Notes: a model not told the origin generated them from the sequence alone. Positions 2,001-38,903 are shown, counted from the first letter of the stretch. The stretch: 64,000 nucleotides of DNA from Spirochaetia bacterium (GCA_029975555.1 JARKOY010000079.1:62001-126000); one strand, 5' to 3'. Numbers and translations are program-made.

Positions 2001-2045
2001 TTGTGGCTTCCCTGATTGTAGCTTTCCTGGTTATGGCTTTCCCAG
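2001..2045. repeat. Three degenerate 15-bp tandem units over a stop codon
   Basis: Three exactly phased 15-bp units can be read on the plus strand: TTGTGGCTTCCCTGA, TTGTAGCTTTCCTGG and TTATGGCTTTCCCAG. The third contains the stop codon (TAA on the minus strand) of the neighbouring secreted-protein gene. The other two lie just beyond that stop. Confidence 0.6.
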
Positions 2046-2684
2046 GGGCTGCGAGCCTTCGTCGGGCGCAGAGAAACCTGGACCTGGCTCCGAAGGAGCC
2101 ATCACATAGACATAGTATTCCTGGACAGGCACGCCAGTATCGCGGGCCCTCAATATATAGACCTCAAGGCTGTACCACCTTCCTGGTTCCAGAAGAGAAA
2201 AATCATCTCCCTGAATGCCCACGACACGATAGATCGTATTTCCCGGTTTCTGATCGTCGCTTTCCAGCACAGAGCCGATGCCGTACACCGTTGTCGGGCG
2301 CACGCTTATTCGCCGTTTTAGTGGCAGGGAATAGTGCGCAGGATCTGTCGAACGGAGCTTTTCTAATATACTGTTTAAAGCAGATATTCTCTTCTCCATC
2401 GCCAGCACATCCTGTTGCCGAGCTTCACCCTTTGCCCTGTCTAGTTCTTTCTCATAAAAATCAATATCCATATTGATGGACAGCATCTCAGCAGCAAGGA
2501 GCTCAGCCTTGAGGGGACCTTCTTTTTTTAAAAAAAGACCATAATGAGCGGAATCAGTCGAGGTTGGGGTGAAATCCAGAGGCGCATCGGAGAAAGTTTC
2601 GTCTTGGGCTCCTATGGACACGAGAGCAGCAAAGCAAACCACCATGAGCCACAACCAACGCTTCCAAAATTGCGCGCCTGCCAT
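2031..2684 (-). CDS. Small secreted protein of unknown function
   Basis: I do not recognise the family. From the chosen ATG the protein has a clear signal peptide (KRWLWLMVVCFAALVSIGAQ, with cleavage expected after the AQ). An acidic linker follows, then a Leu/Glu-rich helical stretch that could be a short coiled coil (roughly residues 60-105), then a beta-rich C-terminal half with the motif EPGRWYSLEVYILRARDTG. This ATG is preferred over a TTG 99 nt upstream because the upstream start would add a second hydrophobic segment before the signal peptide. An AGGG lies 7 nt before the ATG. The gene follows the GntR regulator on the same strand. Its 3' end lies in a 15-bp tandem repeat array. It is probably periplasmic or envelope-associated. 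Confidence 0.6.
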   Translation of the reverse strand: MAGAQFWKRWLWLMVVCFAALVSIGAQDETFSDAPLDFTPTSTDSAHYGLFLKKEGPLKAELLAAEMLSINMDIDFYEKELDRAKGEARQQDVLAMEKRISALNSILEKLRSTDPAHYSLPLKRRISVRPTTVYGIGSVLESDDQKPGNTIYRVVGIQGDDFSLLEPGRWYSLEVYILRARDTGVPVQEYYVYVMAPSEPGPGFSAPDEGSQPLGKP

Positions 2685-2775
2685 CGACACCCTGTTGGAT
2701 TGCATCATATAAAAATAACAATAAAAACATACTAATGATACAAACACAGCTCCCAACAAGTCTCTGATCAAAAGC

Positions 2776-3468
2776 TTACTCAAGGACTTTATTGATGTCC
2801 GTCATGGATAACTTCAGGTGATCTACCATCGCCTGGGCGGCCGCGTCGGAGTCGCGTGCCCGTATTGCCTGCATTATTTTTCGGTGAGGCTCTAGAGCGT
2901 TTTTGATATTTTTCTTTACTGCAAAAGATCGAACTCTATATTCCCTGAAAAATTCAACGATCGTACGATTCAGCATAATAAGGAGATTATTTCCCGAAGC
3001 CTCAGCAATAGCCGTATGAAAAGCCTCATCCAGCAGAGCTAAATCGAGTGCATTACCTGACTCGGTAGCATTTTCAAACAATACTAATATTCTATCTATA
3101 TTATTTATTTGTTCGTCGCTTGCCCTTTCGATGAATAACCGGACAGCAAGCGGCTCGAGGCTCATTCTGACCTGTATGAAGTCAATTAACTCGATTTTGT
3201 TTTTGCTAAACCAGTCTCGAATTTTTTCATCACTGTCCTCGCTCGTTTTGATAATGAAAGCGCCTTTCCCCTGTTTTACTTCAATAAATCCAAGCGCTTT
3301 AAGCATGCGTAGAGCCTCTCGGACTGTCGATCTTCCAACACCCAACTGCTGGCATAAATCTTTTTCAGTCGGGATGCGGTCGCCGATCTTGTATGCGCCG
3401 GAGAGAATTTCGTTCTTTATCTGCTGTACCGCCTGATCCGTTATCGACAGCCTACTGATCGAGCGCAT
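2776..3468 (-). CDS. GntR-family transcriptional regulator, FadR/FCD subgroup
   Basis: Probable ligand-responsive repressor of the adjacent transport and catabolic operon. The N-terminal winged helix spans about residues 10-75 (PTEKDLCQQLGVGRSTVREALRML is the recognition region). An all-helical FCD domain follows, from about 90 to 220, with the expected metal-binding set Asp147, His151, His195 and His217. Length (230 aa) is normal. A clean AGGAG lies 7 nt before the ATG. The gene is on the same strand and 57 nt behind the NanA-like gene, so it is the last regulatory member of that operon. FCD regulators usually sense small carboxylates or sugar acids, which fits the neighbouring carboxylate transporter. 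The effector is unknown. Confidence 0.9.
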   Translation of the reverse strand: MRSISRLSITDQAVQQIKNEILSGAYKIGDRIPTEKDLCQQLGVGRSTVREALRMLKALGFIEVKQGKGAFIIKTSEDSDEKIRDWFSKNKIELIDFIQVRMSLEPLAVRLFIERASDEQINNIDRILVLFENATESGNALDLALLDEAFHTAIAEASGNNLLIMLNRTIVEFFREYRVRSFAVKKNIKNALEPHRKIMQAIRARDSDAAAQAMVDHLKLSMTDINKVLE

Positions 3469-3525: not shown

Positions 3526-4401
3526 TTACTTGCAATCAATGTTTTTTTTTATATCTGAGATAGGCAGAAATGGTTTACGACACTCGCCGCATGGAAGCCC
3601 AGAAAGGGCAAGTGCATACTTGAGCGCTGGGAAGAAAGACCCTCCAGAGAGACATTCTATGACCGAATTTGCAATATTCTGTAATTTCTGCGCTTTAGTA
3701 ATATCTCCGGAGAAAAGGGCACTCCGCATATCTAGAAATAGCTCCGGCATGAGGTTTACGGTACTTCCTATCATACCGTCGGCGCCTAAAGAAAGCGCTG
3801 CTACAAACACTTCGTCATATCCAGAAAATATGACTGTTTCTGGAAACTTTTTGCGTATTCGTTCCAACTCATAAAGATTCATCGATGTGTGCTTGAGCCC
3901 TGCGACTCCGGAGATATTTAATAGTTTCTCAAGACCCTCTACGCCGAATTTTCTCCCGGAGAAAGCAGGAATGTTATAGATAATTATGGGCAATCCCGAA
4001 GCTTCGGCGATATCTGTATAATACCCTTGTATCTCTTCAAGATCATAGTTGAAATAGAGAGGAGGTGTCGCGGAGATTGCCGTTGCCCCAATCTTAGTCG
4101 CATGTTTAGCCAGCGAGATAGCAGCACTGGTAGAAAGAGCGCCTACATGCGCAATGACAGGCGCCTTTCCATCTACAACAGCCAGCACCGTTTCCAAAAT
4201 CTCTTTTCTTTCATCATCTCTTAAGAGAAAGCATTCTCCTGTCGATCCGCCCACATAAAAGCCCTCAACGCCTCTTTTCAACAGACTCTTTACAATATGG
4301 CTAAGAGCAACAGTATCAATCGTATCATTCGCATTAAACGCGGTTGGAAGCGCAGCAAAGACCCCTGCTGGTATACGCCTTTTTTTTTCATGGATTACCA
4401 T
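3526..4401 (-). CDS. N-acetylneuraminate lyase-like aldolase (DapA/NanA superfamily)
   Basis: Class I aldolase that should cleave or form a 2-keto acid through a lysine Schiff base in the cytoplasm. The (beta/alpha)8 barrel landmarks are the GGSTGE carboxylate-binding loop (51-56), Tyr142 (IIYNIPAFSG) and Lys170 (AGLKHTS). The second half resembles E. coli NanA closely, as I remember it: the LYELERIRK region, the GYDEVF and GADGMIGSTVN motifs, and a CRKPF near the C-terminus. This makes it more NanA-like than the other two paralogues in the operon. Its ATG overlaps the stop of the upstream SDR gene (ATGGTAA), implying translational coupling. The true substrate could be sialic acid or another 2-keto-3-deoxy sugar acid. 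No epimerase or kinase for sialic acid is visible nearby. Confidence 0.8.
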   Translation of the reverse strand: MVIHEKKRRIPAGVFAALPTAFNANDTIDTVALSHIVKSLLKRGVEGFYVGGSTGECFLLRDDERKEILETVLAVVDGKAPVIAHVGALSTSAAISLAKHATKIGATAISATPPLYFNYDLEEIQGYYTDIAEASGLPIIIYNIPAFSGRKFGVEGLEKLLNISGVAGLKHTSMNLYELERIRKKFPETVIFSGYDEVFVAALSLGADGMIGSTVNLMPELFLDMRSALFSGDITKAQKLQNIANSVIECLSGGSFFPALKYALALSGLPCGECRKPFLPISDIKKNIDCK

Positions 4402-5219
4402 GCTGTCCAGCCCCCATCTATAACCAAATTGGAGCCTGTCATGTACGATGAAGCTTGTGATGCCAAAAAAATTATAGCACCGTTGAATTCATCTTCTCTC
4501 GCCATTCTTCGGATAGGAATTCTAGCACAGTAATTCGCTTGGAATTCAGGGTCTTGCGTTGATCTCCACACACCTGAGGGTGTAAGTGTATTTACCCTCA
4601 CACCTTTTGACGCCCAATAAGTCGCCAGATATCGAGTCAAATTATATATTCCAGACTTAGAAGCGCAGTATGCCACAGGCTTTACGAAAGGTATTCCGGT
4701 CTTCTCTGCCTTATAAGCATAGATGTCCTGGACAGGCGAAAGCATGCCATAAATCGATCCGATGTTTATGATTGAGCCACGACCTTCTTTCGCCATTGCG
4801 GCACCGACAACCTGGCATGCAAGAAAAGTACCCACAAGGTTTACTTCCACTACTTCTCGGAACACTTCCTCTGGAAAGTTTTCGAAGGGGCCCGAAACTT
4901 CAGGAGGAGCGGAAGGCTGGGTATCGAGACCGGCATTGTTTATCAGCACATGAGGGGTTCCCCATTTTTTCAACACAACATCAAGGCCATCCTGAATTGA
5001 TTTTTTCTTTGTGATATCAACCGAGATCGCTATGATACGTTTGCAACATTCAGGAAACACCTCACAAATCTGTGCTGGTTCTGGAATATGGCGCGCGAAA
5101 ATGGCGACCCTCGCCCCTCGTTCAGCCAAAGTTTTAACAAACTGCTTTCCGAGTTGCCCCATTCCTCCTGTTACAATGGCAATATAATCCTGTACCGAAA
5201 AAATATCTTTATTATTCAT
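4395..5219 (-). CDS. Short-chain dehydrogenase/reductase (SDR)
   Basis: NAD(P)-dependent oxidoreductase of the classical SDR type. It has the Rossmann glycine motif TGGMGQLG (17-24), NNAG (94-97), catalytic Ser155 (NIGS), Tyr184 and Lys188 (YCASK) and the usual C-terminal GSNLVIDGGW. There is a roughly 15-residue insertion between the Ser and Tyr motifs (DIYAYKAEKTGIPFVK), which shapes the substrate pocket and is known from SDRs acting on sugar-acid or sialic-acid-like substrates. It lies between the transporter permease (16 nt away) and the NanA-like aldolase (overlapping). It probably oxidises or reduces the imported acid before or after aldol cleavage. The substrate is not determinable from sequence. 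Confidence 0.88.
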   Translation of the reverse strand: MNNKDIFSVQDYIAIVTGGMGQLGKQFVKTLAERGARVAIFARHIPEPAQICEVFPECCKRIIAISVDITKKKSIQDGLDVVLKKWGTPHVLINNAGLDTQPSAPPEVSGPFENFPEEVFREVVEVNLVGTFLACQVVGAAMAKEGRGSIINIGSIYGMLSPVQDIYAYKAEKTGIPFVKPVAYCASKSGIYNLTRYLATYWASKGVRVNTLTPSGVWRSTQDPEFQANYCARIPIRRMAREDEFNGAIIFLASQASSYMTGSNLVIDGGWTAW

Positions 5220-5235
5220 GACTTTTCTCCCCCAC

Positions 5236-6732
5236 CTACCTTTTGGTTTGGTCCAATTGCCTAGATGCGCGCTTCGATTTGGTAATGTTAGAAATGACGG
5301 TATACAGGATCAGCACCCAGAATAACCAACAGAGAGGCCTCGTAAAAAATATGAAGTAGTTGCCTTCGGAAATAATGACGGTCCTACCCAGATTCGATTC
5401 GACGAGAGGCCCAAGAATGAGGCCCAGAAGAAGCGGTGGCACCGGATAATCCGCCTTGGTCAGGATATAGCCTAAAAAACCAGCAATAATGGTGACACCG
5501 ACGTCGAATGCATTATTCCGCATTGCGTACGAACCGATTATCGCGAGGACAAAAATCATCGTGGTGATGAGCTTTGTCGGAAGCTGGAGCACTTTCGCAA
5601 AGAATCTAGCCCCTAGAAGCCCTAAAACAAGAATAAGAAGATTGCTTGTAATAGTGCTGGCAAAAACCGTGTAGATGACCTGGGGATTATCCTTGAACAG
5701 CAGCGGCCCCGGTTGTAGTCCGAGCAGCATAAGCCCACCAAGCATGACCGCCGTCGCAGCTTCACCTGGGATACCGAGAGTAAACATGGGGATCATAGCC
5801 CCGTTCACACATGCATTATTCCCGGACTCAGGTGCGGCGACTCCTTCAATGACACCTGTCCCGAATTCCGCTCCGTTCTTGGAAGAACGCTTGGCCTCGC
5901 CATATGAGAGAAACGCGGCGATATCCGTGCCCGTCCCGGGCACAGCTCCTACAAAGGTGCCTATAAACGCCGACTTTATAATATGTGGCAAAATTCGCAG
6001 GAATTCCTTCCCGCTTATGCCGATTCTGTTTATTTTTGCCTGTTGGGCCTGAGGCTCATTGTATTTCTCAATGCCCTCGAATGCTTGGGCTGCAGCGAAC
6101 AGGCCGATCAGGACAGGCAGGAGAGACAGTCCGTTTAACAGATTAAGCTGCCCAAAAGTAAAACGCGGAAAACCGGAAATCGGGTCTATGCCAATCGTCG
6201 ATATCAAAATTCCAAGAAGGCCCATGAAAATCCCTTTCGCCATGGACTTCCCGGCGACATAAGAAATCATGGAGAGCCCGTATATGCCAAGCAGTACATA
6301 TTCGGGTGGTCCGAACAGCACGGCGATTTTCGCGATCTGGGGCGCGAGAAATGTGAGGATCAAAGCACCTATTAGTCCACCCAACGCGCTTGCGATTGTT
6401 GACACCGCGACAGCCTTGCCAGCCTGTCCTTTCTGTGCGAGAGGATATCCATCGAGTACCGTCGCTCCCGCCGCCGGCGTTCCTGGCGTTTTCAGAAGAA
6501 TCGCTGATATCGAACCACCGTAGATCCCTCCGGCAAAGATGCCGACCATGAGAGAAAGCGCATAGGATGGATCCATTCCATAGGTGAAAGGGATGAGAAG
6601 GGCAATGCCCATAGTGGCGGTAAGGCCAGGCAACGCACCTATTATTATCCCTAAGAAAACTCCGATGAAGAGTGCAAGGATACTTCCAGTCTGAATAAGA
6701 TGTCCAAATCCGTTCAATAAATATTGTACCAT
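5236..6732 (-). CDS. tctA: Tripartite tricarboxylate transporter, large permease TctA
   Basis: The large membrane subunit (about 498 aa) of a TTT-family secondary transporter. With TctB it imports a carboxylate delivered by the periplasmic TctC protein. Many hydrophobic segments are seen with family signatures: GALPGLTATMGIALLIPFTYGM near the start, GIYGGSISAILLKTPGTPA, and the second-half repeat GAVPGTGTDIAAFLSYGEAK. The ATG at this position is preferred to an upstream TTG because GAGGA stands 7 nt ahead of it. It follows tctB with a 10-nt gap. Substrates of the family include citrate, tartrate and other di- and tricarboxylates. Here the flanking aldolases suggest a sugar acid or keto acid. 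Confidence 0.95.
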   Translation of the reverse strand: MVQYLLNGFGHLIQTGSILALFIGVFLGIIIGALPGLTATMGIALLIPFTYGMDPSYALSLMVGIFAGGIYGGSISAILLKTPGTPAAGATVLDGYPLAQKGQAGKAVAVSTIASALGGLIGALILTFLAPQIAKIAVLFGPPEYVLLGIYGLSMISYVAGKSMAKGIFMGLLGILISTIGIDPISGFPRFTFGQLNLLNGLSLLPVLIGLFAAAQAFEGIEKYNEPQAQQAKINRIGISGKEFLRILPHIIKSAFIGTFVGAVPGTGTDIAAFLSYGEAKRSSKNGAEFGTGVIEGVAAPESGNNACVNGAMIPMFTLGIPGEAATAVMLGGLMLLGLQPGPLLFKDNPQVIYTVFASTITSNLLILVLGLLGARFFAKVLQLPTKLITTMIFVLAIIGSYAMRNNAFDVGVTIIAGFLGYILTKADYPVPPLLLGLILGPLVESNLGRTVIISEGNYFIFFTRPLCWLFWVLILYTVISNITKSKRASRQLDQTKR

Positions 6733-6742
6733 CGCTGTGTCC

Positions 6743-7204
6743 TCAGAATCCAAGAATCCCTTCAGGAAGGGGCACTGACAACAGAACTTTGAAAATGAGG
6801 TATATGCCGGCGGTCGTCAGGATCGACGTCAGAAGATTGGTTACAACATTCGAAAATCTCATCAAAAAAAGAAGTGCAGCTATAAAAACGGGCGTCAAAA
6901 TAACGAACCCGACTTTTTTCAGAAATAATCCGTACAGCAAAAGGATAAAAAAGGTTAAAAGGACTTTCTGTGCATTATTAATATCTACCGCTGCATTACT
7001 CTTTTTACCCATAGCCCGGACCAATATATAAACGCCTACAACAGCAAGGACAAGCGCAATAATCCTTGGGAAAACTGCAGCGCCGAGCTGTGCCTCATGC
7101 GGTTCCGGAAAACTCGCACTTAAAACAAATACAACAACCAGCAACACAATGCTTAGAATGCCGAGAAACAGATCCAACCATTTGACTTTGAATGAAACCA
7201 CCAT
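6743..7204 (-). CDS. tctB: Tripartite tricarboxylate transporter, small permease TctB
   Basis: Small four-helix membrane subunit of the TTT transporter (153 aa, normal length). Four hydrophobic segments are visible, at about 9-28, 45-63, 80-97 and 101-145. The stretch HEAQLGAAVFPRIIALVL is typical of TctB. A strong GGAGGGG precedes the ATG. It lies between tctC and tctA, the normal gene order. A long perfect hairpin separates it from tctC and probably lowers its expression relative to the binding protein. Confidence 0.92.
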   Translation of the reverse strand: MVVSFKVKWLDLFLGILSIVLLVVVFVLSASFPEPHEAQLGAAVFPRIIALVLAVVGVYILVRAMGKKSNAAVDINNAQKVLLTFFILLLYGLFLKKVGFVILTPVFIAALLFLMRFSNVVTNLLTSILTTAGIYLIFKVLLSVPLPEGILGF

Positions 7205-7233
7205 GCAGACCCCTCCGAAATAGCCTCTCAGAT

Positions 7234-7269
7234 AAAGAAAGCGGCCTGAGCCCTCTGGCCGCTTTCTTT
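7234..7269 (-). terminator. Hairpin between tctC and tctB (attenuating terminator)
   Basis: A perfect 13-bp inverted repeat (AAAGAAAGCGGCC / GGCCGCTTTCTTT) with a 10-nt loop. Read on the minus strand it sits about 35 nt after the tctC stop and ends in a T-rich arm (CTTTCTTTAT). It fits a leaky terminator or 3'-stabilising stem that gives more binding protein than permease. Confidence 0.75.
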
Positions 7270-7303
7270 CACTTCTGTTGTACCGCGACAGATTGTTCTC
7301 AGT

Positions 7304-8263
7304 CTATTTGTTCCGCAAAAGACCGAGTTCCGTCAGTATCGGCGCAAGGGTAGCAGCAGTATCGTCAGCGAGTTTCTTGTAATCGGCCGTTGAACGGTAG
7401 TCAATACCAAGCCCCATTTTGGCCAGCGTTTGAACAAAGTCAGGCTCTTCCATCATCTTCTTAAAAGCATCGTGCAAAATTTTCACTCTGTCTGCCGGAA
7501 GCCCCTTAGGACCGCCAATACCACGGAATGTACTGACGTTTACGTTATAGCCGAGTTCCATGAGTGTAGGTATTTCAGGGAAATTTGCCAAGCGTTTATC
7601 GCCCATGCACGCCAGCATCGTAAGTTCCCCAGCCTTTACCTGCGCCTGTACCTCCGCACCTGAAACGGTGACCGCATCGATCTGGTTTCCAATAAGTGCA
7701 GCAATGGCAGGAGCAGCACCATCAAACGGAACATATGTCAATGAGATCCCTGCTTCCTTGGCAAAGACTGCTGCTGCAAGATGCCACAGTAAGCCTGTAC
7801 CAGAGTGCCCCACTTTTAATTTTCCAGGATTAGCCTTGGCATAGGCCACAAAATCAGCGACACTTTTGAACTTTCCAGATTTCACAGTAAGAGCTGCGGG
7901 ATCGGTGTTCAGATTCATAATGGGGGTAAAGTCTTTGAAACCAAAAGGATACACGCCTGTTTTGTCCATGAATCCAAGTTCCACAGGAAGAATCGCAAGC
8001 GTATAGCCATCGGGAGCCGCCTGAACAACTTCCGCCAACCCAACCGCGCCGGATCCCCCCGGTTTGTTCTCGACGACAACAGGAACGCCCAGATACTTTT
8101 CACCAGATCGAGCAAGGGCACGGGCCACCGCATCGGTCCCCCCTCCGGCATTCCAGGGGACGATAATCTTGATCGGCTTGGTGGGGAATTTCCCCTGAGC
8201 GAAGGCGCCAAGCGTAAAAATCATCGACATCAGAACAATGATTCCGGCTATGCATTTGCGCAT
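7304..8263 (-). CDS. tctC: TTT transporter periplasmic binding protein TctC (Bug family)
   Basis: Periplasmic solute receptor of the Bug/TctC family (319 aa). It starts with a signal peptide ending in GAFAQ. The mature part has the family hallmarks PIKIIVPWNAGGGTDAVAR, VENKPGGSGAVG, and the ligand-loop region around GHSGTGLLWHLAAA. Family members bind carboxylates through water-mediated contacts. An ideal AGGAGG lies 6 nt before the ATG. It follows the second DapA-like gene by 27 nt and precedes tctB. The ligand is not predictable beyond a carboxylate. Confidence 0.94.
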   Translation of the reverse strand: MRKCIAGIIVLMSMIFTLGAFAQGKFPTKPIKIIVPWNAGGGTDAVARALARSGEKYLGVPVVVENKPGGSGAVGLAEVVQAAPDGYTLAILPVELGFMDKTGVYPFGFKDFTPIMNLNTDPAALTVKSGKFKSVADFVAYAKANPGKLKVGHSGTGLLWHLAAAVFAKEAGISLTYVPFDGAAPAIAALIGNQIDAVTVSGAEVQAQVKAGELTMLACMGDKRLANFPEIPTLMELGYNVNVSTFRGIGGPKGLPADRVKILHDAFKKMMEEPDFVQTLAKMGLGIDYRSTADYKKLADDTAATLAPILTELGLLRNK

Positions 8264-8290
8264 ATCAACCTCCTAATAAATTCTCCGGGC

Positions 8291-9181
8291 TTATTCATCC
8301 CGAATATGCTCAAGTAGTTTTTTCATGTGAAACACTTGGGCTTCCGTCACTTCGCTCATTGGAGAGCGGGAGCAACCACAGTCCCTTCCCATAAGCCTAA
8401 GAGCCGCCTTCATGCGGGCAGGGAACTGCGGTCCACGGACAGCCTTCCAGACCGGATAAATCGTATCTTGAATTTTGCGCGCCTCATCCTTCCGGCCTTC
8501 TTGCACCAAATTCCACATTTTTACGCACAGTCGAGGAAAGAGCGAAAGTATTGCGGAAATCGCGCCATCCGCCCCAAGGTCGAATGCCGAATACAGCATT
8601 TCGTCAGTGGCGGCGTAGATCATGCCTCTTTGCCCGTTCGTGATCACCATGTCGTAGAAGGCCATGATGCCACCGACACTCTGTTTGATGCCCATGACAT
8701 TCGGAATCTCTAAAAGGCGCGAAAATGCTTCGGAGGTAATCTCATTCTGCGGAACCACGTTGTAGATGATCACCGGCAATCCTGATGCTTCCGCAATTGC
8801 TTCATAAAACGAATAATTTCCTTTTTCGTCCGGCACCAATACATTGTAGAAGACGGGGGTCACCATGAGCGCATCCGCGCCCGCAGCCTTGGCGGCCAAA
8901 GCGGTCTTCACAGCGGCCTGCGTGGATGTCCTGATCACACCCGCCACGATGGGCAGCCCTTTCGTGTTTTCCTCTTTTACTATACGGATCAACTCGGAAA
9001 GCTCTTCATCGGTCAGCGCCGCGCCTTCTCCTGTGCTTCCCCCTGGAGACAGGCCGTGAACTCCACACTCGATGAGGTGCCTGACTTCCCGCCGGAATAT
9101 GGCTCTGTCGATTTTGCCGGACGCATCGAAAGGCGAAATAATCGGCGGAATGATTCCCCTCAGGGTTTCGCTCTTTTTCAT
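8291..9181 (-). CDS. DapA/NanA-superfamily aldolase, second copy
   Basis: Second lysine-dependent aldolase of the operon (296 aa). Landmarks are GGSTGE (47-52), Tyr140 (IIYNVVP) and the Schiff-base Lys166 (GIKQS). The normal first-strand motif is present (GIIPPIISPFD). The Arg that in true DHDPS binds the pyruvate carboxylate is not obvious, so a lysine-pathway role is not favoured. The ATG is chosen over a GTG one codon upstream because GGAG is then 7 nt away. The gene follows the third paralogue with a 13-nt gap. Likely roles are cleavage of a 2-keto-3-deoxy acid or a dehydratase/decarboxylase reaction of this superfamily. Near its 3' end is a 16-mer close to the parS consensus. Confidence 0.82.
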   Translation of the reverse strand: MKKSETLRGIIPPIISPFDASGKIDRAIFRREVRHLIECGVHGLSPGGSTGEGAALTDEELSELIRIVKEENTKGLPIVAGVIRTSTQAAVKTALAAKAAGADALMVTPVFYNVLVPDEKGNYSFYEAIAEASGLPVIIYNVVPQNEITSEAFSRLLEIPNVMGIKQSVGGIMAFYDMVITNGQRGMIYAATDEMLYSAFDLGADGAISAILSLFPRLCVKMWNLVQEGRKDEARKIQDTIYPVWKAVRGPQFPARMKAALRLMGRDCGCSRSPMSEVTEAQVFHMKKLLEHIRDE

Positions 9182-9194
9182 CACTGTGCTCCAA

Positions 9195-10106
9195 TCAGAT
9201 AAGATTGACTTCCTTCAAAAGCCCCATCAGGAATTTTCTTTCACCGTCGGTAATTGGGTCCAGCGGCCTCCTTGGGGGACCTATCTCAATGCCCGTCACG
9301 ACCTCGATCGCAGCCCTCAGCATTGGATTCGGATGGACGCGGCCATTCACTCCGAAACCACGGAACAGGCGGAATATATCGCGGTACACTTCCATGGCCT
9401 CGGTATTTTTCCCCGTTTCATACAGCTCGAATACTTTTCGGATCCTATCACCGACAAGATGTGCTCCGCCAGAAACAATCCCCACTGCGCCCTGCGGAAT
9501 AGTCGGCATGAGCATAAGGTCATCGCCGTTGAACAGCAGAAAATCCGGTTTTACTGACTTAGTGGCCAGATAATAATCCGTTATTTGAATTGGATTTAAG
9601 CCTGCCTCATCCTTGATACCAACAACACGAGGAAGCGCTGCCAGTCTCCCTACGAGGGCCGGCTCCATATTGATGCCCGTAAATATAGGAATATTATAAA
9701 GCAGTATCGGAATATTCGTCGCGTCGTGCACGATTCTGAAGTGCTCGTAGATCGCATCTTGTGTAGGTTTGCAGTAGAACGGGGCGACGATCATAATGCA
9801 GTCCGCACCAATTCTTTCGGCTTTCTGAGCGAGCGCTACGGTTTCCCTTGTGGAGGCGCATCCAACGCCGGCGATGACCGGCACCTTGCCTGCAGCCGCT
9901 CTCAGCGCCGTTTCGAGCAGTCTCGCTCTTTCGTCGACAGTAAGCGTATTGAACTCCCCCGTCGTTCCAGTAACGATGAGCGAATCGCAGTATTTCTTGG
10001 CAATAACATATTCTATCAACTGTATATATTTTTTATAATCGACTTCTTCATTGCAATCGAACGGTGTGACGAGCGGCAGCAGAATCCGACCATACGGGTT
10101 TCCCAT
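9195..10106 (-). CDS. DapA-superfamily aldolase, third copy, first gene of operon
   Basis: Third member of the superfamily in the same operon (303 aa). It has GTTGE (47-51), Tyr137 (LLYNIP) and Lys165 (GIKDEAG). Its TGTTGEF loop and GIKDEAG resemble hydroxy-tetrahydrodipicolinate synthase more than the other two copies do. The C-terminal part (PNPMLRAAIEVVTGIEIGPPRRP) is also DHDPS-like. However, its position at the head of a transport operon argues for a catabolic or neofunctionalised enzyme. A strong GAGGAGG precedes the ATG. The sigma-70 promoter and operator-like palindrome lie in the 200 bp upstream. A bona fide DapA elsewhere in the genome would settle this. Confidence 0.82.
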   Translation of the reverse strand: MGNPYGRILLPLVTPFDCNEEVDYKKYIQLIEYVIAKKYCDSLIVTGTTGEFNTLTVDERARLLETALRAAAGKVPVIAGVGCASTRETVALAQKAERIGADCIMIVAPFYCKPTQDAIYEHFRIVHDATNIPILLYNIPIFTGINMEPALVGRLAALPRVVGIKDEAGLNPIQITDYYLATKSVKPDFLLFNGDDLMLMPTIPQGAVGIVSGGAHLVGDRIRKVFELYETGKNTEAMEVYRDIFRLFRGFGVNGRVHPNPMLRAAIEVVTGIEIGPPRRPLDPITDGERKFLMGLLKEVNLI

Positions 10107-10135
10107 CTATTCCTCCTCGGAGTTATTGTGATGTT

Positions 10136-10163
10136 ATGATATCATGTAATCAGGTTGTCTGAT
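10136..10163. promoter_or_regulatory. Candidate operator of the TTT/aldolase operon
   Basis: Two adjacent palindromes lie just downstream of the predicted promoter: ATGATATCAT (10 bp, perfect) and ATCAG-GTTGT-CTGAT (perfect 5-bp arms). This position blocks transcription when occupied. The obvious candidate is the FCD/GntR protein encoded at the end of the operon. Assignment to that protein is inference. Confidence 0.5.
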
Positions 10164-10173
10164 ATCTTATCTT

Positions 10174-10202
10174 AGTGTAAATCTGGTTTTCAAAATTGTC
10201 AA
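10174..10202 (-). promoter_or_regulatory. Sigma-70 promoter of the TTT/aldolase operon
   Basis: On the minus strand a consensus -35 TTGACA is followed after exactly 17 bp by TACACT (4 of 6 to TATAAT). Transcription would start about 60 nt before the ATG of the first aldolase gene and run through the palindromes. Confidence 0.7.
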
Positions 10203-10311: not shown

Positions 10312-12459
10312 ATGCACATCTTCGTTCTCATCAAACAAGTCCCTGAAACCGACAAGGTCAAAATGGACCCGGAAACCGGCACGATGGTGCGTTCGGGGCT
10401 TGAGAGCATCGTCAATCCTCTCGATCTTTACGCGATCGAAGAGGCGCTTGTGTTGAAAGAACGTCACGGGGCACACATAACCGTGCTCTCGATGGGCCCG
10501 CCGGATGCGGAGCGCGCCCTGCGGGAGTCGCTCGCGATGGGGTGCGACAGCGCAATTTTGCTGACCGACAGGGCTTTTGCGGGCTCTGACACCTGGGCGA
10601 CCTCGCGCGTGCTGGCCGCAGCGATCCGGCGCGCAGGGGACGTAGACATCATCCTCGCAGGTGAGCGGGCCACCGACGGAGATACCGGTCAGGTCGGACC
10701 TGCGGTGGCCGCGTGGCTCGATATTCCCGTTCTCACGTACGTAAGTTCTCTTGAAATCGAAGCGGAACCCTTGTCCACAACGACGGCCGCCCACGGCGCC
10801 CCTCTCTCTGAAAACACACCAACAGCCATCACCAGTGCCTCTTCTCCAGTGGCTGTGCCGAAGACCATCCGCGTCCGCCGGCTGACCGAGGAGGGCTATC
10901 AAGTGCTCCAGGCCAGGCCGCCATGCCTCGTCACGGTCGTGAAAGAGATCGCTTCGCCGCGCCTTCCGACGCTGCGCGGCAAAAAATTCGCCCGGAGTGC
11001 GGAAGTGGTGCGCTGGGGAGCTGGGGACCTCGACCTTGATCCTGCTAGTACGGGGCTCGCTGGTTCTCCGACCCGCGTGACAAAGATTTTTTATCCAAAA
11101 GTCGCACGCAATGGCCAGCGTATTGTGGCCGCGGACGAAGCGGGCATCGAAACGGCGATCGGCCACATCATGACGCTTTTTGAAAAAAAGGGCCTCCTCG
11201 ACAAGGCCTCGGCTGGGGACAGAGCTTTTGCTCCTTCGGTGCCTCTTGCCACTGCTTCCTTTTCGAGCTCAGCGCCTGAGCACTCTTCCGTTGCACAGGG
11301 CGCGGCGGGACAGGAATCCGACACCGCAGACACGCCGACAAAGCCCGAATTCTGGATTCTGGCGGAGCGCCGCGCAGGCGGCCTCGACGTGGTCTCTTTT
11401 GAGCTGCTCGCGCGGGCACGGGCGCTCGCGGACAGCCGAGGGGCGCTTTTAGCGGCAGTGGTGCCTACCTCCTCACTCTCCGAAGAGGACGCAGGCGCGC
11501 TGATTGCCCATGGCGCGGACCGCGTTCTCGCACTCGAGCATCCTTTCTTGCGCGATTTTCTGTGTGAAACATGGGCGGCAGTCCTCTACAAGCTTGTGCG
11601 CGAGCGCCAGCCCGAGGTTTTTCTCGCCGCCGCCACGACGACGGGCCGCACGCTCATGCCCTATCTCGCGGCCAAGCTCGGCACAGGCCTCACCGCCGAC
11701 TGCACTGAACTCGCCATCGAGGAGGGCACGGGCCTATTGCTCCAGACCCGTCCTGCCATCGGCGGGAACATCATGGCCACGATTAAGACGGCCCGCCACA
11801 AGCCCCAGATGGCCACAGTCCGTCCGCACTCGATGCAACCTCTCTCCCCCGACACCGGGCGCCGAGGCGCGGTGATCCGCCTTGCAGGAGGACCGTTCGC
11901 AGGCGAAGCCTCTGAGCCTCCTGTCCGGATACTCGCACTCGAGCGCAACACCGAGGATTTTGAAAACCTCGAAGGGGCGCGCATCGTCGTCTCGGGCGGA
12001 CGAGGCCTCAAGAAAGCCGACAATTTTAAGCTCATCCGCGAGCTCGCGTGCACCCTTGGCGCTGTCGTCGGCGCAAGCCGAGAAGTAGTCGACAGGGGCT
12101 GGATATCCTACCCCCATCAGGTGGGCTTAAGCGGCAAGACCATATCGCCCGAAATCTACCTCTGTGCAGGAATTTCAGGCGCCATCCAGCACCTGGCGGG
12201 CATCCGCACAGCAAAGACCGTCATTTCGATCAACACCGATCCCGATGCGCCCATCCATGCCGTGGCCGACCTCGCGATCGTGGGTGACCTCTTCGACATT
12301 CTTCCCCGGCTCACGGCGCGCCTGCGACAGGGGGCCACTCACGGCTTGCCGCACGAACATCCCTGGCCTTCATCGGACGGTCTGGCCCCAGCCTCGCCTG
12401 CTGCCGCGAGATCTGTCGACGAGGAGGTAACCGGCAGCTCGAAGGAGGCACGATCATGA
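10312..12459 (+). CDS. EtfB-EtfA fusion: single-chain electron transfer flavoprotein
   Basis: Both ETF subunits in one 715-residue chain. Residues 1 to about 295 are EtfB, with AGERATDGDTGQVGP (116-130), the nucleotide-binding loop in the form I associate with bifurcating ETFs. Residues 300-345 are a Ser/Ala/Glu-rich linker. Residues 345 to about 670 are EtfA, with the FAD-binding region GGRGLKKAD (562-570), DRGWISYPHQVGLSGKT (594-610) and NTDPDAPI. The EtfB part carries an insertion of about 30 residues rich in Ser/Thr/Pro (150-183). No ferredoxin-like cysteine motif is present, unlike LctC of Acetobacterium. The next gene, a GlcD/LctD oxidase, overlaps by 4 nt. The fusion probably passes electrons between that dehydrogenase, NAD(H) and ferredoxin or a quinone pool. 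Confidence 0.92.
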   Translation: MHIFVLIKQVPETDKVKMDPETGTMVRSGLESIVNPLDLYAIEEALVLKERHGAHITVLSMGPPDAERALRESLAMGCDSAILLTDRAFAGSDTWATSRVLAAAIRRAGDVDIILAGERATDGDTGQVGPAVAAWLDIPVLTYVSSLEIEAEPLSTTTAAHGAPLSENTPTAITSASSPVAVPKTIRVRRLTEEGYQVLQARPPCLVTVVKEIASPRLPTLRGKKFARSAEVVRWGAGDLDLDPASTGLAGSPTRVTKIFYPKVARNGQRIVAADEAGIETAIGHIMTLFEKKGLLDKASAGDRAFAPSVPLATASFSSSAPEHSSVAQGAAGQESDTADTPTKPEFWILAERRAGGLDVVSFELLARARALADSRGALLAAVVPTSSLSEEDAGALIAHGADRVLALEHPFLRDFLCETWAAVLYKLVRERQPEVFLAAATTTGRTLMPYLAAKLGTGLTADCTELAIEEGTGLLLQTRPAIGGNIMATIKTARHKPQMATVRPHSMQPLSPDTGRRGAVIRLAGGPFAGEASEPPVRILALERNTEDFENLEGARIVVSGGRGLKKADNFKLIRELACTLGAVVGASREVVDRGWISYPHQVGLSGKTISPEIYLCAGISGAIQHLAGIRTAKTVISINTDPDAPIHAVADLAIVGDLFDILPRLTARLRQGATHGLPHEHPWPSSDGLAPASPAAARSVDEEVTGSSKEARS

Positions 12460-13874
12460 CCTATAATCACCTCACCCAAGAGATCATCGATGAACTCATC
12501 CGTATCGTTGGGGAACGAAATGTGCTTTTGGATCCAGCGCGCACCGAGGCCTTTTCTCACGATGAAACCTCCAAGGAAGAATATGGCCACATGCCCGAGG
12601 TTGTCGTGACGCCGCAGTCCACCGAGGCCGTCGCCGCCGTGGTCAAACTTGCGAACCAACATCGCATCCCTATCACGCCCCGCGGCGCGGGGAGCGGGCT
12701 TTCGGGCGGCGCTATCCCAGTCTACGGCGGCATCGTGCTGTCGCTCGAAAAGATGAACCGCGTGCGCGAGATCGACTACGACAACCTCACCATGACCGTT
12801 GAGACCGGCATCGTCACCAACGAGATCAACAACCTCGTCAAAGACAAGGGCCTATTCTACGCAGGCTACCCTATGAGCCTCGAGACGTGCACGCTCGGCG
12901 GCAACATCGCGGAAAACGCTGGCGGAGGAAAGGCCATCAAGTACGGCGTGACGTCGCGCTACATCCTCGGACTCGAATTCGTCACACCCACCGGCGAGGT
13001 CGTCTGGCTTGGAGGCAAGCTCGCAAAGGACGTGACCGGATACGACCTCGTCCACCTCATCGTCGGTTCGGAAGGCACGCTCGGCATCGCCACGGCGGCC
13101 ATCATCAGGCTCATCGGACTGCCTGTTGCGAAATCCGACCTTCTCGTCCTCTTCCGCAGTCCTCAGGAAGCGATATCGACTGTCCCCATCATCCTCTCCA
13201 AAGGCCTCATTCCCACCGCCATCGAGTTCATGGACCGTCGTAGCGTGGAGACGTCCTGTGCTTATCTGAACGAGAACCTGCCGTATGCAGAGTGCGGCGC
13301 GATGCTGCTCATCGAGATGGACGGCCGAGACCCCGCCCTCGTCGAGCGCGAAGCCGAGGCTGTGGGAGACCTGTGCATGGAGCAGGGAGCCATCGAGGTC
13401 TATGTGGCGGACAACCGCACCACACAGGAGCGCCTTTGGGCGATACGCCGCAACATCGCCGAGGCCTTCAAGGTCTACTGCCCCGTTCAGAGCCTCGAAG
13501 ACATCGTCGTGCCGCCCGCGGCGATTCCCGCCGTCATTCCGGAACTCGATCGTATATCCGAACAGTTCGGTATCACCATCCCCTGCTACGGCCATGCGGG
13601 CGATGGAAACTTGCACGCGACCCTCGTCAAAGCGCCCGACATGCCCATGGAGGCGTGGCGCCGCATCGAACCGGAGGCGCTCACTGCGCTGTACGAAGCC
13701 ATCACCAGGCTCGGCGGCAAAATCTCGGGCGAACACGGCATCGGGCTCAAGCGCAAAGCGTACATGAAAAAGTTCATGAGCCCCGTCGAGCTTGCGCTTC
13801 TCAAGGCGATCAAGCGCGCGTGGGACCCCAACCTCATCATGAATCCGGGGAAAATTTTCGATATTGAAGATTGA
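12456..13874 (+). CDS. FAD-linked 2-hydroxyacid (lactate/glycolate) dehydrogenase, GlcD/LctD type
   Basis: Flavoprotein oxidase of the FAD_binding_4 / FAD-oxidase C family (472 aa). The PCMH-type FAD site shows TPRGAGSGLSGGA and GGNIAENAGGGKAIKYG. The C-terminal cap has the family motifs YGHAGDGNLH and SGEHGIGLKRKAYM. The ATG overlaps the stop of the EtfBA fusion (ATGA) with AAGGAGG upstream, so the two are made together. This matches the lctB-lctC-lctD arrangement of bifurcating lactate dehydrogenase, with LctB and LctC fused. The substrate could be lactate, glycolate or another 2-hydroxyacid. No permease or racemase is adjacent. Confidence 0.92.
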   Translation: MTYNHLTQEIIDELIRIVGERNVLLDPARTEAFSHDETSKEEYGHMPEVVVTPQSTEAVAAVVKLANQHRIPITPRGAGSGLSGGAIPVYGGIVLSLEKMNRVREIDYDNLTMTVETGIVTNEINNLVKDKGLFYAGYPMSLETCTLGGNIAENAGGGKAIKYGVTSRYILGLEFVTPTGEVVWLGGKLAKDVTGYDLVHLIVGSEGTLGIATAAIIRLIGLPVAKSDLLVLFRSPQEAISTVPIILSKGLIPTAIEFMDRRSVETSCAYLNENLPYAECGAMLLIEMDGRDPALVEREAEAVGDLCMEQGAIEVYVADNRTTQERLWAIRRNIAEAFKVYCPVQSLEDIVVPPAAIPAVIPELDRISEQFGITIPCYGHAGDGNLHATLVKAPDMPMEAWRRIEPEALTALYEAITRLGGKISGEHGIGLKRKAYMKKFMSPVELALLKAIKRAWDPNLIMNPGKIFDIED

Positions 13875-38218: not shown

Positions 38219-38247
38219 CGATTCTCGCCGAATGGTTTGCTTAGATT

Positions 38248-38332
38248 GGAGCGGTGTCCGAGGGGTTTAAGGAGACGGTCTTGAAAACCGCTGTACCGCA
38301 AGGTACCGGGGGTTCGAATCCCCCCTGCTCCG
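38248..38332 (+). tRNA. tRNA-Ser (anticodon TGA)
   Basis: Acceptor stem GGAGCGG / CTGCTCC with discriminator G, anticodon loop CTTGAAA, long variable arm GTACC-GCAA-GGTAC typical of serine tRNAs, and T-arm GGGGG TTCGAAT CCCCC. CCA is not encoded. One A-C mismatch at the base of the anticodon stem. Confidence 0.95.
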
Positions 38333-38352
38333 TCGTGAGCCACCTGATGTGA

Positions 38353-38440
38353 GGAGAGGTGCGAGAGAGGCCGAATCGGGCTCCCTGCTAAGGAGTTGTA
38401 CCCCTAAAGGGTACCGAGGGTTCGAATCCCTCCCTCTCCG
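38353..38440 (+). tRNA. tRNA-Ser (anticodon GCT)
   Basis: Acceptor stem GGAGAGG / CCTCTCC with discriminator G. The anticodon loop has GCT flanked by the CTCC..GGAG stem. A long variable arm is built on TACCC/GGGTA. T-arm GAGGG TTCGAAT CCCTC. CCA is not encoded. Confidence 0.95.
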
Positions 38441-38447
38441 GTTTCGT

Positions 38448-38521
38448 GAGGCTATAGCTCAGCTGGATAGAGCTTCAGATTGCGGATCTGAAGGTCGGAG
38501 GTTCGAATCCTCTTAGCCTCA
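38448..38521 (+). tRNA. tRNA-Arg (anticodon GCG)
   Basis: Acceptor stem GAGGCTA / TAGCCTC with discriminator A, D-arm AGCTCAGCTGGATAGAGC, anticodon stem TCAGA / TCTGA with loop TTGCGGA, short variable loop, T-arm GGAGG TTCGAAT CCTCT. The anticodon is GCG rather than the usual ACG. A T run follows directly. Confidence 0.9.
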
Positions 38522-38532
38522 CTTTTTTTATT

Positions 38533-38618
38533 GGAGAGATGCGAGAGCGGTTGAATCGGGCGGTCTCGAAAACCGTTGAACCCTCTGGGTTCCGGGGGTT
38601 CGAATCCCCCTCTCTCCG
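38533..38618 (+). tRNA. tRNA-Ser (anticodon CGA)
   Basis: Acceptor stem GGAGAGA / TCTCTCC with discriminator G, anticodon loop CTCGAAA, long variable arm (AACCC-TCTG-GGTT), T-arm GGGGG TTCGAAT CCCCC. CCA is not encoded. Confidence 0.95.
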
Positions 38619-38691
38619 CGAGAGGAAACCGCGGGCTGGGGGCCCTGGTTTCCCGACGAAAGGCCTCTTTGCTGAGCGCGATTCTACCCCT

Positions 38692-38778
38692 GGAGAGATG
38701 ACCGAGCGGTCGAAGGTGCGCGATTGGAAGTCGCGTGTACCCGTAAGGGTACCGAGGGTTCAAATCCCTCTCTCTCCG
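38692..38778 (+). tRNA. tRNA-Ser (anticodon GGA)
   Basis: Acceptor stem GGAGAGA / TCTCTCC with discriminator G, anticodon stem CGCGA / TCGCG with loop TTGGAAG, long variable arm TACCC-GTAA-GGGTA, T-arm GAGGG TTCAAAT CCCTC. It ends 10 nt before the SRP RNA. Confidence 0.95.
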
Positions 38779-38788
38779 CTTGCAGGTT

Positions 38789-38903
38789 GAGCGCATAAGG
38801 CCAGGCACTGTGCTCGTAACCACTGCCTAACCCCGCCAGGTCCGGAAGGAAGCAACGGTACGCAGCAGGTGCGGTGCCGCAGAGCGCCTGGCTTTATGCG
38901 CTC
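38789..38903 (+). ncRNA. ffs: Small signal recognition particle RNA (4.5S type)
   Basis: A hairpin of about 115 nt with closing stem GAGCGCATAA / TTATGCGCTC and the conserved apical domain CCAGGTCCGGAAGGAAGCA that binds Ffh. It is the short type without an Alu domain. Its place just before dnaX, after a serine tRNA, matches the arrangement known from other bacteria (scr-dnaX-yaaK-recR in Bacillus). Confidence 0.93.

Follow-up and report, generated by a model that had tools for sequence, protein, structure and literature searches.

Why a single operon should carry one TTT transporter together with three different lyases of the DHDPS/NAL superfamily, and what acid such a gene set might serve, is the question raised by the locus described here. 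The window, a stretch of 64,000 nucleotides, belongs to contig C151 of a Rectinema (Spirochaetia) draft genome that measures 3.27 Mb and is 99% complete. On its minus strand, from 10106 to 2776, three superfamily genes, TctC-TctB-TctA, an SDR gene, and an FCD-GntR gene follow one another, with the following features:

10174 to 10202, minus strand: promoter-like TTGACA-17-TACACT upstream of DapA1 (10 of 12 consensus positions)
10138 to 10166, minus strand: 29-bp inverted-repeat site in the promoter-DapA1 interval, presumed GntR operator (shuffles, conservation)
9195 to 10106, minus strand: DapA1, DHDPS/NAL-superfamily lyase, 303 aa, YNIPIFTG type (PF00701, 242 bits)
8291 to 9184, minus strand: DapA2, DHDPS/NAL-superfamily lyase, 297 aa, YNVVPQN type (PF00701; no NCBIfam cut-off reached)
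7304 to 8263, minus strand: TctC, solute-binding protein of the TTT transporter (PF03401, 197 bits)
7234 to 7269, minus strand: GC-rich RNA hairpin in the TctC-TctB gap (three Rectinema genomes)
6743 to 7204, minus strand: TctB, small membrane subunit (PF07331, 72.6 bits)
5236 to 6753, minus strand: TctA, large membrane subunit, with a possible alternative start ATG at 6732 (PF01970, 514 bits)
4395 to 5219, minus strand: SDR dehydrogenase (PF13561, 153 bits; also PF00106)
3526 to 4401, minus strand: DapA3, putative NAL-like 2-keto-3-deoxy-sugar-acid aldolase, 291 aa, short C-terminus (NF003164, NanA clade)
2776 to 3468, minus strand: FCD-type GntR regulator, NanR-like (FCD 100 bits, GntR 78 bits)

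This gene content had been proposed for one operon in a preliminary description of the locus, and every member was recovered with Pfam scores far above cut-off. The three lyases score 198-249 bits against PF00701 (cut-off 22), and the three-subunit set of the TTT transporter is complete, with PF01970, PF07331, and PF03401 each above cut-off. Distances between genes of the operon range from -11 to +99 bp; the FCD-GntR gene starts 57 bp past DapA3, just beyond positions 3526-10163. A 250-aa ORF without Pfam or NCBIfam match (window 2031-2783, minus strand), which shares 8 bp with the GntR gene end, probably lies outside the operon. Divergent to the operon, on the plus strand at 10312-13874, lie two genes, one encoding an EtfB-EtfA fusion of 715 aa and the other an FAD-linked oxidase of the GlcD type (472 aa); together the products probably form a hydroxy-acid dehydrogenase/ETF pair. 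These genes were dropped as operon partners, since they are not adjacent to the operon in Rectinema subterraneum or in the spirochaete genome G007. Further along the window (38247-38896, plus strand), four tRNA-Ser genes and one tRNA-Arg gene are directly followed by the bacterial small SRP RNA.

Pairwise identity among DapA1, DapA2, and DapA3 is 26-28%. In a maximum-likelihood tree that included E. coli DapA, NanA, YagE, and YjhH, DapA3 was placed inside the NanA clade (support 100/99), DapA1 belonged to a separate clade of seven members (100/100) that is weakly tied to true DHDPS, and DapA2 grouped with alphaproteobacterial and other catabolic homologs (100/96). Recent duplication is ruled out by these values, and the earlier view that the lyases are clearly diverged, one of them NanA-like, was borne out. 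Because the Schiff-base lysine, the YN tyrosine, the second tyrosine, and the G(S/T)TGE loop are intact in the alignment of all three, each of them is probably active. Their substrate loops differ: that of DapA2 carries a two-residue deletion, and that of DapA3 reads YNIPAFSG. YagE and YjhH, which fall into separate clades, have G(S/T)GGE instead of G(S/T)TGE. The AlphaFold2 model of DapA1 reached a pLDDT of 90.8. The DapA2 model (pLDDT 76) matched DHDPS structures with Z about 30 (275-286 residues aligned at 2.2-2.8 Å), and with 50 DHDPS structures tied at Z 29-30 this comparison does not discriminate functions; KdgD and L-KDA dehydratase were absent among the matches listed, which excludes nothing.

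One of the lyases had been regarded as DHDPS-like, a view that very probably does not hold. The DHDPS-defining residue, Arg138 of YNVPxR, binds aspartate semialdehyde. This position is occupied by Phe in DapA1 and DapA3 and by Gln in DapA2, and by Arg in E. coli DapA and in one of the seven DHDPS-family genes of this genome, a copy on contig C65 (L047) that adjoins aspartokinase-like and DapB-like ORFs (neighbors recognized by eye). Judged by its sequence, the C65 copy is the genuine DapA of the genome, outside the operon, and lysine biosynthesis was discarded as a role for the operon lyases, which have no Arg138. DapA1 scores above the NCBIfam dapA cut-off (TIGR00674, 206.15) with 214.7, as opposed to 163.1 for DapA2 and 161.9 for DapA3, yet it lacks the arginine and the real DapA is encoded elsewhere; the dapA name is very probably wrong for DapA1, which would not be a DHDPS.

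The preliminary statement that each of these families normally occurs singly in a catabolic operon was too strong, since G563 as well as plasmids of Shinella and Burkholderia have two-lyase clusters and the genus possesses another multi-lyase locus. At least 3 of 119 related genomes (G000, G002, and G004) have a minimum of three DHDPS genes inside 10 kb, those listed all belonging to this genus, and the G004 cluster is made of other lyase types than those of G000 and G002. It comprises three superfamily genes in 7 kb (L081:1887-8696) and represents the second multi-lyase locus together with contig C36 of the present genome, where two such genes accompany a TRAP transporter and an IclR regulator (L048:8754-10652). 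A further TTT cluster, on contig C111 (L049:9590-16729), includes a DHDPS-family gene, a LacI-like regulator, an RraA-like protein, and a DhaK-type kinase, resembling alphaproteobacterial DapA-DhaKL-TTT clusters.

Comparison of gene neighborhoods across spirochaetes recovered the full operon in R. subterraneum SURF-ANA1 (G002), a member of the same genus; elsewhere its two modules were found apart. In R. subterraneum (L017), the whole block is kept in the same order along with a fourth, divergent DapA1-like lyase, which the divergently oriented GntR gene adjoins. The DapA3 gene of this strain (L017:8992-9864) has a frame shift near the C-terminus that reflects either a sequencing error or gene decay. 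In G003 (L044), the operon order is kept over the portion contained on a short contig. By these sequence comparisons, the operon is a union of two separately conserved gene modules, a make-up that fits steps recruited from two pathways better than a single ancestral pathway with three lyases.

The first module, GntR-DapA1-DapA2, was found in further spirochaetes with unrelated uptake systems: a sugar-type ABC transporter plus FAD oxidoreductase in G007, TctCBA in G019, a Liv-type ABC transporter in G022, and, in G563, a polar-amino-acid-type ABC transporter with a class V aminotransferase, a ribokinase-like kinase, and a SIS protein. The regulator is 70% identical in G007 and 78% in G003.

The second module consists of SDR and DapA3. 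The SDR motifs are intact in the alignment (glycine-rich TGGMGQLG; Y-x-x-x-K as YCASK), and the protein is 64-84% identical across spirochaetes and Klebsiella. The pair, with an SDR identity of 64-71%, occurs in Treponema lecithinolyticum, Treponema socranskii, Sphaerochaeta-type MAGs, Klebsiella plasmids, and 82 of 5,426 E. coli genomes. Its neighbor is often a protein of the enolase superfamily that matches L-talarate/galactarate dehydratase best among the models, though below cut-off. In Treponema, HGW-Spirochaetae, Klebsiella, and E. coli, the pair sits together with an acid-sugar dehydratase of the enolase superfamily and a TRAP, ABC, or MFS transporter. The operon of Klebsiella plasmids and E. 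coli likewise has the SDR (65%) directly before a NAL-like aldolase that belongs to the DapA3 clade (about 42%), but it possesses an MFS transporter, a LacI regulator, an FGGY kinase, a GlcG/HbpS protein, and the enolase-superfamily dehydratase, without DapA1 or DapA2. In E. coli Ecol_743 (L074:4066-13334), the order FGGY kinase-MFS-MR dehydratase-SDR-DapA-GlcG/HbpS-LacI lies amid IS remnants, and the MR-SDR-DapA-HbpS part is present in the 82 complete E. coli genomes. In Alphaproteobacteria, an SDR of this type (50-53%) comes after TctA or an ABC transporter and is paired with an aldolase of the RraA or HpcH type, not with DapA3. Thalassospira and Qingshengfaniella share with the Rectinema operon the order TctC-TctB-TctA-SDR and an adjacent GntR regulator (FadR/GntR), but have an RraA-type aldolase and no DHDPS-superfamily lyases. 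With NAL-like, RraA, and HpcH neighbors across these clusters, the SDR thus has partners from three unrelated families of pyruvate-type aldolases, and transporters are freely exchanged.

Directly downstream of the promoter lies GATATCAGACAACCTGATTACATGATATC (GATATCA-N15-TGATATC), a 7-bp inverted repeat with a 15-bp spacer for which no match is expected in 100 shuffles. In R. subterraneum, which has TTGACA-17-TAATAT at the equivalent place, both 7-bp arms are retained within an otherwise poorly conserved region, and in G007 the 29-bp site is letter-for-letter the same, despite the ABC transporter in place of TTT. Three Rectinema genomes thus have this site at the promoter of the GntR-DapA1-DapA2 module. 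Since the GntR gene is the regulator common to these loci, the site is a natural candidate for the GntR operator. Within the genus it was found only upstream of DapA1, besides two one-mismatch core matches, and the window holds no further full site; a regulon beyond the DapA1 promoter was therefore discarded. A weaker similar stretch was noticed by eye ahead of the ABC binding-protein gene of G007. The TctC-TctB-gap hairpin is present in the three Rectinema genomes with a changed stem sequence (z -2.2, -3.6, and -4.4) and may adjust how much binding protein is made relative to permease.

What, then, might the operon degrade? DapA3 scores above the N-acetylneuraminate lyase model NF003164 (291, cut-off 281) and below the stricter nanA model TIGR00683 (257.5, cut-off 382). 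The alignment shows that it retains T167, G189, D191, E192, and S208 of NanA, which we take to be the contacts of the E. coli enzyme to Neu5Ac or the sugar-acid chain. Because these residues are kept, a 2-keto-3-deoxy-sugar acid would be the likeliest DapA3 substrate. Taken together, the operon probably, though by no means securely, serves the inducible uptake and catabolism of a hydroxy-carboxylic acid, most likely a sugar acid or a uronate-derived one, via 2-oxo-acids and their Schiff-base cleavage to pyruvate and an aldehyde. An acid-catabolism operon had been suggested before, and the present analysis supports it. TctC would capture the acid outside and TctAB import it; inside the cell, the SDR would oxidize or reduce one hydroxyl or keto group, and the acid would be converted to one or more 2-oxo-acids forming Schiff bases with DapA1, DapA2, and DapA3. 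DapA3 would act last, splitting a 2-keto-3-deoxy-sugar acid by retro-aldol cleavage into pyruvate and a hydroxy-aldehyde, and DapA1 and DapA2 would perform the remaining lyase or dehydratase reactions or cleave sister isomers. The NanR-like GntR protein would repress at the 29-bp site until an intermediate is present. Substrate class, step order, SDR direction, and regulator mode are those that we infer.

A weakness of this reading is the source of the DapA3 substrate. In a genome search directed at the enolase superfamily, no (MR-type) dehydratase scored above cut-off. Thus, DapA1 or DapA2 could fill the missing-dehydratase step, or an unlinked enzyme, perhaps a dehydratase of another family such as the IlvD/EDD or altronate type, could supply the substrate. 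The former is conceivable because members of the DHDPS/NAL superfamily also dehydrate 2-oxo-acids, among them KdgD, the 5-dehydro-4-deoxyglucarate dehydratase (PMC6353982), and L-KDA dehydratase (PMC9795676). KdgD, L-KDA dehydratase, and YagE/YjhH share with the operon lyases the superfamily fold and Schiff-base chemistry on 2-oxo-acids. In direct comparisons with KdgD and YagE/YjhH, however, no operon lyase reached a KdgD cut-off, the best scores being those of DapA2 (117 against 374 for TIGR03249 and 134.5 against 278 for NF002958), and none grouped with YagE/YjhH.

For the transporter, the nearest solved structure to TctC, 4x9t, was determined without ligand (PMC5812351) and thus gave no clue to the substrate. 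Between the operon TctC and the TctC that neighbors the alphaproteobacterial SDR, as in the Thalassospira and Qingshengfaniella clusters, identity is only 34%, and their substrates therefore need not coincide. In Vibrio sp. C42, a TTT system imports alginate oligosaccharides, which are degraded via KDG (PMC13390454), providing a precedent for TTT uptake of uronate-type acids. That system also has GntR regulators and an oxidoreductase step before an aldolase, but it employs alginate lyases, KdgF, and a KdgK-Eda route with a phosphorylated intermediate, and no DHDPS-superfamily lyases are named in the locus (PMC13390454). Searches of the open-access literature (TTT with DHDPS; DHDPS with DhaK; NAL with MR and Treponema), with most subscription journals outside their scope, found no matching characterized pathway or operon, in agreement with the preliminary description.

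The two options of the preliminary description, a family of related acids or successive steps on one acid, are both compatible with the sequence. Instead of acting in sequence, the three lyases might serve three stereoisomeric or homologous acids entering through one broad-specificity TTT transporter. That each has a complete but different active site fits this idea, as does the occurrence of the modules apart from each other, neither requiring the other. However, DapA1 and DapA2 stay clustered across 42-45% identity and differing transporters, which suggests joint action on one substrate, and we regard parallel use as a possible but secondary explanation. It is tempting to speculate that GntR-DapA1-DapA2 is central to an undescribed pathway: two enzymes of the DHDPS superfamily, acting successively or as a mixed oligomer, would replace the usual metal-dependent dehydratase plus aldolase in the breakdown of an acid for which no bacterial degradation is known, and SDR-DapA3 would be a plug-in module that completes the route; this proposal is doubtful. 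The aminotransferase and amino-acid-type ABC transporter beside DapA1-DapA2 in G563 would also fit an amino-acid-derived 2-oxo-acid and thus weigh against the sugar-acid reading. DapA1-DapA2 might then constitute an amino-acid or other non-sugar keto-acid route, with SDR-DapA3 a later addition clearing an aldehyde or keto by-product. Shinella, too, has a pair of DapA2-like genes next to genes for an amino-acid ABC system, an aminotransferase, and a DhaKL kinase. This route is nonetheless unlikely, as Rectinema has no linked aminotransferase and G007 has a carbohydrate-type ABC transporter and an FAD oxidoreductase.

With E. coli nanATEK-nanR (L071), the operon shares an FCD-GntR regulator and an NAL-clade aldolase with the same contact residues, but it differs in having TTT rather than NanT, an SDR, and two further lyases. 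A Neu5Ac catabolic operon with TTT as replacement transporter, NanA-like DapA3, and a NanR-like regulator is very improbable: DapA3 passes NF003164 and NanR is the best NCBIfam match of the regulator, but the latter (26% identical to E. coli NanR) stays below its model (NF003011; 131.5, cut-off 260), DapA3 stays short of TIGR00683, DapA3 orthologs accompany acid-sugar dehydratases instead, NanK, NagA, and NagB are missing from the operon, and NanE (PF04131) had no match in the whole 99%-complete genome, with an E. coli control giving one.

The operon is real, conserved, and uncharacterized, its two modules being made of known kinds of protein; it offers a good target for pathway discovery and does not constitute a novel type of system. 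Its substrate is directly testable by means of the three diverged lyases, the binding protein, and the defined 29-bp site. DapA1 further reveals that the NCBIfam dapA model labels as DHDPS a clade without the DHDPS-defining arginine. Named oral Treponema species possess the module of MR dehydratase, SDR, and NAL-like aldolase, as do Klebsiella plasmids and 82 complete E. coli genomes, and a function found there would annotate many genomes.
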